From contig JAESUZ010003089.1 in assembly GCA_017311185.1 (NCBI GenBank), positions 434,001 to 498,000 on the forward strand: a DNA stretch of 64,000 nucleotides, given 5' to 3'. Origin of the DNA: Proteles cristata cristata (lineage: Eukaryota > Chordata > Mammalia > Carnivora > Hyaenidae). Under the pieces are notes generated by a model. The model saw nothing but the letters and a program-made list of their open reading frames with translations, did not search any database and was not told where the DNA came from. This document shows positions 1 through 46,768 of the stretch, piece by piece. The translations under genes and the position numbers were made by a program. Numbering within the stretch: the first letter of the stretch is position 1; the number at the start of each line of letters is the position of its first letter.

Positions 1-224
1 TCTCACCACAGCCTCCCCTGCTCCACTGCCAGTGCTCTGCGGTCTCAGCAGCCGGTGGGGGGCGCTCCGTCCTCCCCAAGAGCCACAGTCTCCAGGGCCC
101 GGCACAGAGCACCCACCCCTCAGCTCCCACCCTGCCCCCGATGCAGGTGCGCCCTCTGGGACTCCGCAGCCAGTAGGGAGAGGCTGCTAGGTGCTCCCAC
201 TGAGGGGGGCGGGGCGGGCTCTAC

Positions 225-463
225 CTGAAAATGGGCCCCAGCTCCTGGAAGAGCTGGTGCAGCTCCAGGTGCAGGGTCTCCAGGCCCCGCTCCCTCCAGA
301 TCTGCAGCAGCCTCGCCCACCTGCTGCCGGGGCAGCGGGGGATGGCTTCGAAGGGCAGCACCGCCTTGGGGGCCGCAGTGGCTCCGGTGCCCAGCGCGCC
401 TGCCCTGCCCGGGGACGGCCAGGGCCCTGCCAGCCACGCTCGTGCCTTGGCCCCGACTGCCAT
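225..463 (-). CDS. CYP11B1: CYP11B (11-beta-hydroxylase/aldosterone synthase family), exon 1, left copy
   Basis: First coding exon of a mitochondrial class B cytochrome P450 that performs the last steps of cortisol or aldosterone synthesis in the adrenal cortex. It encodes 79 codons plus two bases. The N-terminus is rich in Ala and Arg, as expected for a mitochondrial presequence. It is followed by the family's conserved exon 1 end, with VLPFEAIP, RLLQIWRE, LHLELHQ and FQELGPIF. The ATG is the only one after the TATA box, and the exon closes on CAG|GTAGAG. The protein is identical to the right-arm copy at 46191. Exon 2 would lie about 115 bases beyond the left edge, so the gene is partial here and its integrity is unknown. 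CYP11B1 and CYP11B2 cannot be told apart from exon 1, so the symbol is a family-level choice. Confidence 0.93.
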
Positions 464-497
464 TCTGATGCTCCGTCAGCCCCCGTCAGCGCAGTCC

Positions 498-600
498 TTT
501 TATCTGGCTGGAGGCCTGGACCCACGACTCTATCACGTCATGGGAGATGTTGTCCCTGCACCAGGGACAGGAAACCGGGGACAGGGGTCAGGGCTGGAGG
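498..600 (-). promoter_or_regulatory. CYP11B proximal promoter, left copy
   Basis: Read on the minus strand, a TATA box (gataaaa, 498-504) lies about 35 bases upstream of the exon 1 ATG. A CRE-like TGACGTGA lies at 533-540 and a nuclear-receptor-type element (ctccagccctgacc) at 586-599. Order and spacing match the Ad1/CRE and Ad5 (SF-1/COUP/NURR) elements described for mammalian CYP11B promoters. Occupancy is inferred from motif match only. Confidence 0.8.
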
Positions 601-1529
601 CCTCCAGAAGAGATGGATGGGCGCCTTGTCCCACGATTACCCAAGCCTTGCTGGCAGCTGTGTGTGGAGAGCAGGGGCAGGGGCTGGGGCCGGATTGGGG
701 GCTGGATGGGGTTGGGGGGGATTTGAGCCCTTCCCTCCTCCCCGGTGGGGGAAGGGAGCAAGATGGAAGGGGCCCCTTAGCTATCAAGAGGAAAGCCCCT
801 CAAGGCTGTTGTCATGTGCCAGCTTTCCATGTCCTGGCCCGTCTCCCTCCGGGAAGATGGTGACGAGGGGCACCTGAGGCCCGCCTCCCTGCCCTGCCCC
901 AACACGGAGGTGCCCGAATTCCGGGTCCAAGGAGCAGGCCCCAGAGGAGCCTTCTTGCAAAGCCACTTAGTTGGGGCTCACACCCTTGGGCTGTGGGGGC
1001 CGCTGCTCCCCAGTCCCACAGGCTTGGCAGGCCCTGCCTGGGGGCTTCCTCTGGGGAAGGCAGTCCTGTGTGGAGGCCCGGCCAGGGGGTAGGGGTGGAG
1101 AAGGGTGAGGCAGAGCTGGGGGTCAAGGCCGGCCTGGCCCCAGACCACAGAGGACGCCCACAATGCAGATCCCCAGGCCTGGTGCCCCCCCACCCATCTG
1201 CGAGCATGGCTGGCGGGTGTGGAATGGAGAAGGACATGAGTCAGGGGCAGAGCCAAGCAAGGCCAGGGCGACGCGTCCCTGAATACGGGGCGCGCCCCCG
1301 AGGTCCACTGTCAGGAGGGGGTATGGTGAGCCGAGGGGCCAGACCTGCTCTCTGCAAAAGAGCTGGGCTGTGCCGTTTGCTGGGAGCATCCCGGGCCCGC
1401 CTGCTTCCTGCCCCGGGTTCATCCTGGGTCCTTCCTGCCCCCATCCCCAGAGACTGGGCCTCACCCCACGGGGCTCCCTGACTCCTCCACCCAGGCTGTG
1501 GGCCTCAGGCGCGGACGGCGAACTCTTGT

Positions 1530-1543
1530 GCGCCCCCTGGAGG
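1530..1543 (-). promoter_or_regulatory. CTCF-like motif
   Basis: The minus strand reads CCTCCAGGGGGCGC, a good match to the CTCF core. The mirror copy is at 45111-45124 on the plus strand, so the two arms carry this site in opposite orientations. Motif match only. Confidence 0.45.
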
Positions 1544-2211
1544 CCTGCAGGCCAACTGCAGCTGAGCCTCGGCCCCGCCCACAGAGGGCACCCCCCACCC
1601 CCCAGTGTGTCGGGCCGGCCGCTAAGGGGCCCTGGGATCCAGCCGGTTCCGCCCACGGAGTCCCATTTTATCACGCTGTCACCAGGGGTGTGTGCGATAG
1701 GAAAGGCCGGCGAGAAAAGGGGAGACAACCGGCCCAAGGCCCAGTCGGGGAGCGTGGGGTTATCGGCGGCGGTTCACACCACTGGACTTGCAGGGCTGGG
1801 GCCCGGGCGTCCACGCTTCCTTCCGCACTGGGATGAGCACGAACCGCCGCGTGACGCGGTGCGGGCGAAGCGCGTTGCTGGTTCTGCGCACACAGCGGGC
1901 TTGCCGGCGGGGCCGGGGTGGGGGGGAGGGGGGCCGTCCCAGGGCCCGCGGCCGGGGAAGGGCCGGGGGGCAGCTCGGCGCCGGGGGACAGGAAACACGT
2001 GTCAGACGCTCACGACAGCCCGACACACTCGGCACCAGGTTTCAAGCGCGGCCGACACCCAGGCCGTCACATGTGGCCAACAGGCTGTGGGACAGCAGGC
2101 GCCGAGGCCTGGGAGCGCCAGGGTGAGTGGGAGCCCCGGCATCGGGGGGCGGGGGGAGGGGGGTCCCTGCGGGTGTGGAGCTGTGTGCGTTGCTGCTGTG
2201 TTCTAGGGCTT

Positions 2212-44442: not shown

Positions 44443-45110
44443 AGCCCTAGAACACAGCAGCAACGCACACAGCTCCACACCCGCAGGGACCCCCCCTCCC
44501 CCCGCCCCCCGATGCCGGGGCTCCCACTCACCCTGGCGCTCCCAGGCCTCGGCGCCTGCTGTCCCACAGCCTGTTGGCCACATGTGACGGCCTGGGTGTC
44601 GGCCGCGCTTGAAACTTGGTGCCGAGTGTGTCGGGCTGTCGTGAGCGTCTGACACGTGTTTCCTGTCCCCCGGCGCCGAGCTGCCACCCGGCCCTTCCCC
44701 GGCCGCGGGCCCTGGGACGGCCCCCCTCCCCCCCACCCCGGCCCCGCCGGCAAGCCCGCTGTGTGCGCAGAACCAGCAACGCGCTTCGCCCGCACCGCGT
44801 CACGCGGCGGTTCGTGCTCATCCCAGTGCGGAAGGAAGCGTGGACGCCCGGGCCCCAGCCCTGCAAGTCCAGTGGTGTGAACCGCCGCCGATAACCCCAC
44901 GCTCCCCGACTGGGCCTTGGGCCGGTTGTCTCCCCTTTTCTCGCCGGCCTTTCCTATCGCACACACCCCTGGTGACAGCGTGATAAAATGGGACTCCGTG
45001 GGCGGAACCGGCTGGATCCCAGGGCCCCTTAGCGGCCGGCCCGACACACTGGGGGGTGGGGGGTGCCCTCTGTGGGCGGGGCCGAGGCTCAGCTGCAGTT
45101 GGCCTGCAGG

Positions 45111-45124
45111 CCTCCAGGGGGCGC
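45111..45124 (+). promoter_or_regulatory. CTCF-like motif (mirror of 1530-1543)
   Basis: cctccagggggcgc on the plus strand; mirrored copy of the left-arm site. Confidence 0.45.
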
Positions 45125-46054
45125 ACAAGAGTTCGCCGTCCGCGCCTGAGGCCCACAGCCTGGGTGGAGGAGTCAGGGAGCCCCGTGGGGTGAGGCTCAG
45201 TCTCTGGGGATGGGGGCAGGAAGGACCCAGGATGAACCCGGGGCAGGAAGCAGGCGGGCCCGGGATGCTCCCAGCAAACGGCACAGCCCAGCTCTTTTGC
45301 AGAGAGCAGGTCTGGCCCCTCGGCTCACCATACCCCCTCCTGACAGTGGACCTCGGGGGCGCGCCCCGTATTCAGGGACGCGTCGCCCTGGCCTTGCTTG
45401 GCTCTGCCCCTGACCCATGTCCTTCTCCATTCCACACCCGCCAGCCATGCTCGCAGATGGGTGGGGGGGCACCAGGCCTGGGGATCTGCATTGTGGGCGC
45501 CGTCTGTGGTCTGGGGCCAGGCCGGCCTTGACCCCCAGCTCTGCCTCACCCTTCTCCACCCCTACCCCCTGGCCGGGCCTCCACACAGGACTGCCTTCCC
45601 CAGAGGAAGCCCCCAGGCAGGGCCTGCCAAGCCTGTGGGACTGGGGAGCAGCGGCCCCCACAGCCCAAGGGTGTGAGCCCCAACTAAGTGGCTTTGCAAG
45701 AAGGCTCCTCTGGGGCCTGCTCCTTGGACCCGGAATTCGGGCACCTCCGTGTTGGGGCAGGGCAGGGAGGCGGGCCTCAGGTGCCCCTCGTCACCATCTT
45801 CCCGGAGGGAGACGGGCCAGGACATGGAAAGCTGGCACATGACAACAGCCTTGAGGGGCTTTCCTCTTGATAGCTAAGGGGCCCCTTCCATCTTGCTCCC
45901 TTCCCCCACCGGGGAGGAGGGAAGGGCTCAAATCCCCCCCAACCCCATCCAGCCCCCAATCCGGCCCCAGCCCCTGCCCCTGCTCTCCACACACAGCTGC
46001 CAGCAAGGCTTGGGTAATCGTGGGACAAGGCGCCCATCCATCTCTTCTGGAGGC

Positions 46055-46156
46055 CTCCAGCCCTGACCCCTGTCCCCGGTTTCCTGTCCCTGGTGCAGGG
46101 ACAACATCTCCCATGACGTGATAGAGTCGTGGGTCCAGGCCTCCAGCCAGATAAAA
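46055..46156 (+). promoter_or_regulatory. CYP11B proximal promoter, right copy
   Basis: Ad5-like ctccagccctgacc (46055-46068), CRE/Ad1 TGACGTGA (46114-46121) and TATA box gataaaa (46150-46156), in the same order and spacing as the left copy. No substitution was seen between the two copies here. Confidence 0.8.
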
Positions 46157-46190
46157 GGACTGCGCTGACGGGGGCTGACGGAGCATCAGA

Positions 46191-46429
46191 ATGGCAGTCG
46201 GGGCCAAGGCACGAGCGTGGCTGGCAGGGCCCTGGCCGTCCCCGGGCAGGGCAGGCGCGCTGGGCACCGGAGCCACTGCGGCCCCCAAGGCGGTGCTGCC
46301 CTTCGAAGCCATCCCCCGCTGCCCCGGCAGCAGGTGGGCGAGGCTGCTGCAGATCTGGAGGGAGCGGGGCCTGGAGACCCTGCACCTGGAGCTGCACCAG
46401 CTCTTCCAGGAGCTGGGGCCCATTTTCAG
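46191..46429 (+). CDS. CYP11B1: CYP11B exon 1, right copy
   Basis: 79 codons plus two bases; protein identical to the left copy. Ends TTTTCAG|GTAGAG. Carries the mitochondrial presequence and the conserved end GPIF. Confidence 0.93.
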
Positions 46430-46768
46430 GTAGAGCCCGCCCCGCCCCCCTCAGTGGGAGCACCTAGCAGCCTCTCCCTACTGGCTGCGGAGTCCCAGAG
46501 GGCGCACCTGCATCGGGGGCAGGGTGGGAGCTGAGGGGTGGGTGCTCTGTGCCGGGCCCTGGAGACTGTGGCTCTTGGGGAGGACGGAGCGCCCCCCACC
46601 GGCTGCTGAGACCGCAGAGCACTGGCAGTGGAGCAGGGGAGGCTGTGGTGAGACAGCGGGAGGAGCTGCCCCCTCTGGGCCCCAGTCCTGGGGAAGGGAC
46701 AGGTCCTGCAGAGGGAGGCCCGGGGAGGACTCGGACCCCCCCGCAGGACCCTGAGCTTTGTCCCACAG

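Follow-up and report, generated by a model that had tools for sequence, protein, structure and literature searches.

How can two copies of a gene block be nearly identical over most of their length and still encode two clearly different versions of one surface protein? The question is raised by a stretch of 64,000 nucleotides from the genome of the aardwolf, Proteles cristata cristata (assembly GCA_017311185.1, contig JAESUZ010003089.1, positions 434,001 to 498,000 of the forward strand; hereafter the window), in and around which LY6K, GML and the steroid P450 gene CYP11B are found as inverted copies. The answer that we consider probable is an old inverted duplication of LY6K-GML-CYP11B, the arms of which have been homogenised by gene conversion while selection has held the two LY6K ectodomains apart. 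The contrast that carries this reading lies within LY6K itself: the cores of the ectodomain differ at 87 of 242 bases (36%) as against 44 of 4472 (1%) in chosen stretches of intron and flank, both sets having been picked after inspection of the plot. Coordinates are those of the window, negative numbers designating positions to its left in the same contig, and genome searches covered the assembly of 2,387,103,384 bases in 5412 contigs.

Two interleaved inverted pairs

A first-pass annotation of the window had proposed an inverted repeat between about 1-2211 and 44443-46653 that places two CYP11B 5' ends facing outward around GML and LY6K. Both elements of this proposal are borne out. BLAST aligns 1-2211 with 44442-46653 on the minus strand at 99.684% identity over 2212 columns (6 mismatches, 1 gap), and a repeat finder returns 1-2163 against 44491-46653 as its first inverted pair. 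CYP11B exon 1 is present in each arm and points outward (463-225, minus strand, on the left; 46191-46429, plus strand, on the right), with GML and LY6K exons in between. The repeat is too long and too well conserved to be due to chance, and a genome search with 1-2211 led to two places only, the arms just described. The extent of the arms had to be revised, however: the 2.2-kb match stands, but the left arm is truncated by base 1 of the window. Beyond that edge the two arms still match as far as -823, 10 of the 3036 columns being different, over a stretch that goes from the upstream region to intron 2 and includes an exact run of 1803 bases covering exons 1 and 2; the match then continues piecewise to -10644, identity at the 3' end of the arm being 83.5%. 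The longest exact run between arms is 1951 bases, and the 300,509 contig bases read contain 0 N.

A second, larger inverted pair, 23926-42914 against -10735 to -30461, is interleaved with the first and shows that GML and LY6K were duplicated too, in a block of about 19 kb present as inverted copies in the contig (a, left; b, right). The main segments of the window are the following:

1..2211, minus strand: 5' portion of the left CYP11B arm, with exon 1, the promoter and upstream sequence; the arm goes on beyond the window to about -10644 and there contains exons 2-9
2212..23925, no strand: spacer, mostly AT-rich and repeat-rich
23926..42914, plus strand: right arm of the larger pair, bearing GML-b and LY6K-b and matched by -10735 to -30461
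44442..49360, plus strand: right CYP11B arm with the remnant, matched by 2211 to -10644

In the spacer, the best CYP11B match by tblastn had an expectation value (E) of 0.47 and no LY6 match was obtained at E 0.05. The assembly as a whole gave six LY6K matches at two loci, with no third donor seen.

A mosaic of identity and divergence

The LY6K-GML arm contains 791 mismatches in 17,534 aligned columns. When the alignment is cut into 177 intervals of 100 bases, 111 are at least 99% identical and 22 fall below 90%, so that this is not a palindrome with more than 99% identity throughout. Fourteen of the 22 divergent intervals lie within 36800-39899, that is, in the LY6K gene and its 5' region, and the other eight are found towards the inner end of the arm, next to a copy-specific insertion or within a minisatellite. 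The mosaic becomes sharper when LY6K-b is compared with LY6K-a part by part:

36850..37560, plus strand: LY6K-b 5' region, unlike that of LY6K-a; edges 81% and 89% identical, middle without BLAST match
37613..37691, plus strand: exon 1 of LY6K-b, encoding the signal peptide; 2 differences in 79 bases
38404..38508, plus strand: LY6K-b exon 2; 23 of 105 bases differ, all 23 within an island at 38429-38483
39721..39989, plus strand: coding part of LY6K-b exon 3; an island at 39721-39908 has 64 differences in 179 aligned bases, the tail codons 39909-39989 have 0 in 81

Intron 1 differs at 32 of 710 positions (4.5%), 14 of them within one 50-base stretch near 38200, the first part of intron 2 at 13 of 959, its last part at 36 of 238 (15%), and the 3' flank at 21 of 2925. 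Summed over all parts, introns differ at 81 of 1907 bases and coding exons at 89 of 444; within this single genome, introns and flanks thus resemble each other much more closely than coding exons do. Other exons compared across the arms are almost invariant, with one amino acid difference in two GML exons and 0 base differences in three CYP11B exons. The 5' regions of LY6K-a and LY6K-b are largely unalignable, for which reason the two promoters may differ.

Over the 90 codons of the ectodomain core, synonymous divergence (dS) is 0.79 and non-synonymous divergence (dN) 0.35, rough values given the few sites, and the last 26 codons show no difference at all. Both proteins retain the same architecture of three coding exons, a signal peptide, one Ly6 domain with ten cysteines and a hydrophobic tail, signal and anchor being recognised by eye. 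The ten ectodomain cysteines are in register in the alignment, and UPAR_LY6 and Toxin_TOLIP, the latter a related three-finger model, score above cut-off in both.

Two side features of the GML arms may be recorded here. Copy-specific insertions occupy 29972-31288 and -17363 to -15915 and have no other match in the 300-kb region. A minisatellite with units of about 80 bases is found in both arms (34972-35836 and near -22720 to -21894), which align poorly there.

Conflicting trees of the LY6K protein

LY6K-a is identical to a predicted protein of the spotted hyena (Crocuta) at 119 of 121 residues (98%) and LY6K-b to another at 89 of 95 (94%); both types therefore occur in that species as predicted proteins. 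For the ectodomain, a tree was built from 20 rows, namely the two window proteins and 18 of 39 distinct database proteins; the remaining 21, which were not included, comprised isoforms and fragments from felids, one fragment from the dingo and additional rows from ungulates, whales, bats and hedgehogs. Types a and b were named after inspection of pairwise alignments. In this tree, type b of the window, spotted hyena, meerkat and golden jackal forms one group (support 96/96), and a constraint uniting the four hyena rows is rejected (p 0.0019). With eight carnivore rows, the ectodomains of type a split from those of type b at 96/97, while placing a and b of the window together (p 0.0017) or the three canids together (p 0.014) is rejected.

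The eight-row tree of signal peptide plus tail (59 columns), from which the Crocuta rows were left out as partial proteins, has the opposite shape: a and b of the window group together (90/88), as do a and b of the canids (97/95), whereas a single type b group is rejected (p 2.2e-14). At the protein level, then, ectodomains sort by paralogue and the putatively converted parts by lineage, with the restriction that type a lacks a group of its own in the 20-row tree. The Crocuta type b protein ends within about four codons of the island end, as would fit an assembly break at the onset of the shared part. All nine felid proteins among the matches are type a-like by eye, which may reflect loss of type b in felids or a limit of the search.

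One complete CYP11B gene and one remnant

The two CYP11B copies face outward as the first-pass annotation had it, but only the left one is complete. It has nine exons, GT-AG introns and a 503-amino-acid frame, matches CYP11B1/B2 and carries PF00067. Six solved-structure sequences were found with it, all CYP11B2 or CYP11B1 and the best being 4zgx; solved structures searched with exon 1 gave 0 matches. The right copy is a remnant of exons 1, 2 and 9, and a transcript spliced 1-2-9 would run out of frame into a stop. Two complete CYP11B genes are thereby ruled out, exons 3-8 existing once only, in the left gene.

225..463, minus strand: exon 1 of the complete gene; exons 2-9 at -115 to -7604, left of the window
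46191..46429, plus strand: remnant exon 1, identical to the complete gene
46769..46924, plus strand: remnant exon 2, identical to the complete gene
47945..47951, plus strand: deletion junction, at which the two matches share 7 bases; the right copy lacks about 5.5 kb that includes exons 3-8
48178..48291, plus strand: remnant exon 9, identical to the complete gene

The genome search yielded 22 CYP11B matches, 12 in this contig, all from the two copies, and 10 elsewhere at 26-51% identity; no further CYP11B was found in the assembly. Among the best 120 of 463 relatives listed, felids come closest at 85%, followed by a bear at 83%. Together with the LY6K identities to spotted hyena, this rules out a felid origin of the DNA, which the first-pass annotation had assumed. 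In the same 120 matches, one Prionailurus contig yields two CYP11B1 entries. A short-period tandem repeat occupies -1291 to -733 in intron 2 of the complete gene.

Upstream of the start codon the two copies share 687 identical bases, among them TGACGTGA at -77 and GATAAAA at -41, the Ad1/CRE and TATA elements of the promoter. The promoter and exons 1-2 of the remnant are likely intact because they are copied from the working gene. The left protein has glycine in HYSGI and alanine in DTTAY, as does the human CYP11B2 chain, where the CYP11B1 chain has serine and valine; these positions matter for aldosterone synthesis. A lone working CYP11B would not be unusual, since dogs and cats are described as having a single CYP11B that makes both hormones (PMC11586580). 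By analogy, the complete aardwolf gene may make both cortisol and aldosterone.

A probable old duplication with conversion and selection

The first-pass annotation had left the choice between a recent inverted duplication and ongoing gene conversion. The former is unlikely, and gene conversion, past or continuing, acting on an old duplication is favoured, because dS in the LY6K ectodomain is about 0.79 and a canid also has type b. A block containing LY6K, GML and CYP11B would have been duplicated in inverted orientation, likely before the split of the two carnivore suborders. Cat-like and dog-like carnivores diverged about 45 million years ago or more, and with these dates the duplication would be of that age. 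Gene conversion between the arms, we infer, is what likely made the stretches of 99-100% identity, and selection would have weeded out converted LY6K ectodomains because of putatively distinct functions of the two proteins, probably on sperm. In mice, loss of Ly6k causes infertility, as the sperm of knockouts do not migrate into the oviduct (PMC4804279), which suggests a reproductive reason for keeping two LY6K versions.

Could the arms be alike simply because they are young, with little or no conversion? The 111 intervals of at least 99% identity in the larger arm would agree with this. Yet a young copy could not contain a LY6K core with dS 0.79, 15% divergence in the adjoining end of intron 2 and a CYP11B-arm 3' end at 83.5%, nor a type b common to hyenas, meerkat and a canid, unless a third donor existed, and only two LY6K loci matched; we regard recent origin as highly unlikely. 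An artefact, in which a second haplotype or consensus copying put near-identical sequence into both arms, also strikes us as quite improbable. The assembly combines Illumina with 10.9x Nanopore reads according to its description (PMC7963486), and an assembler could homogenise near-identical stretches of such hybrid data. However, the longest exact run is shorter than the Nanopore N50 of 9175 given in the same text, no N interrupts the contig bases read, and the misplaced second haplotype considered by the first-pass annotation would leave unexplained the 36% islands, the copy-specific insertions, the 5.5-kb deletion that leaves one gene without exons 3-8, and the prediction of both LY6K types in the spotted hyena.

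A third possibility accepts conversion and dispenses with selection: the LY6K islands would persist mechanically, their divergence suppressing strand exchange. Divergent spots in intron 1, at the end of intron 2 and in the LY6K 5' region have indeed escaped conversion as well. Against this, one island stops where the tail codons start and the other lies inside exon 2, the ten ectodomain cysteines have stayed in register, and type b has kept its identity in feliforms and a canid, so that a purely mechanical cause appears unlikely, if conceivable.

Old duplication followed by conversion and selection on LY6K hence seems the likely history, and several points weigh against it. The islands are not strictly exonic, since they are accompanied by the last 250 bases of intron 2 (15%), by intron 1 (4.5%) and by the dissimilar 5' region. 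The dN/dS of about 0.44 in the ectodomain core gives no direct sign of positive selection, and the idea that strong positive selection produced the islands is not supported. Type a forms no group of its own among the non-carnivore rows of the 20-row tree; the tree of the ends is small (59 columns, 8 rows), similar ends may partly reflect constraint, and canid conversion is read from protein ends only, in rows from different species. The whole case is drawn from the sequence of one assembly and one individual.

A more far-reaching version can be proposed tentatively, although we find it doubtful. In the LY6 cluster of carnivores, conversion between the arms would have been active for about 45 million years or more, exchanging signal, anchor, introns and the neighbouring CYP11B promoter, while selection kept the two LY6K ectodomains as distinct sperm-surface ligands in hyenas and canids, and the arms could flip the only CYP11B gene as an inversion polymorphism.

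Gene order and neighbouring genes

Genes were named by tblastn with human protein queries. The order is PSCA, SLURP1, LYPD2, LYNX1, LY6D, LY6K-a (minus), GML-a (plus), complete CYP11B (minus) and the spacer, followed by GML-b (minus), LY6K-b (plus), CYP11B remnant (plus), LY6E and LY6H. The GML-b exons compared are:

24752..25033, minus strand: coding part of the last GML-b exon; a single amino acid is different in GML-a
31593..31700, minus strand: GML-b exon encoding the first half of the Ly6 domain; no difference from GML-a

Between LY6D and LY6K-a, Ly6-like exons on the minus strand (-45922 to -49196) weakly resemble several human Ly6 proteins; in mouse, Ly6g6g occupies the matching place. 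LY6E lies outside the window at 76959-77823 on the minus strand, whereas human LY6E is on the plus strand in the same flanking order; a further inversion may therefore separate CYP11B from LY6H. The present order could have arisen from LY6K-GML-CYP11B as a tandem pair, through one inversion followed by a flip between the arms, a putative succession that the minus-strand LY6E complicates.

Significance and comparison with known systems

Among the titles and beginnings of abstracts listed from the open-licence literature, no description of this arrangement was found, whether in relation to LY6K gene conversion, to LY6K duplication, to LY6K together with CYP11B1 and GML, to carnivore LY6K paralogs or to a felid CYP11B duplication. 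The locus concerns a gene needed for male fertility in mice (PMC4804279). Besides the primate opsins, it could be another case where conversion and selection against conversion can be read off one locus. It also leads to the prediction that several carnivores carry two LY6K proteins with putatively different partners. A risk is suggested as well: the working promoter and exons 1-2 are faced by a near-identical copy that is free of constraint, so that the sole complete CYP11B gene could be damaged through conversion from the remnant.

Sex-chromosome palindromes are large near-identical inverted stretches with testis genes, in which gene conversion is inferred. The present arms resemble them in being inverted and nearly identical, and LY6K has a testis role in mouse (PMC4804279). 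They differ in their spacers of 35 and 42 kb, in the interleaving of the arms, in the islands of high divergence and in their location in the LY6 cluster. Steroid P450 genes lying near a similar copy are familiar from human, where CYP11B1 and CYP11B2 form a tandem pair and CYP21A2 is accompanied by CYP21A1P. Here too the copy is very similar, but the two face outward and the remnant lacks exons 3-8. In the mouse chromosome 15 cluster the order is LY6D, then LY6K, then GML (PMC4839075); the left side here keeps that order, and the second, inverted LY6K-GML copy and the CYP11B remnant are what sets the aardwolf apart.

A close parallel in pattern is offered by the primate L/M opsins, in which introns are homogenised by conversion and exons held apart; in gibbons, exon trees put the duplication deep and intron trees put it repeatedly (PMC3213168). 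The opsins are arrayed on the X, whereas the inverted arms described here belong, in a carnivore, to the region corresponding to human 8q24 (PMC4839075). The second tree of the opsins is made from introns and ours from protein ends. Finally, unlike in the opsins, the part kept apart is an extracellular domain, with the signal peptide and tail around it homogenised.

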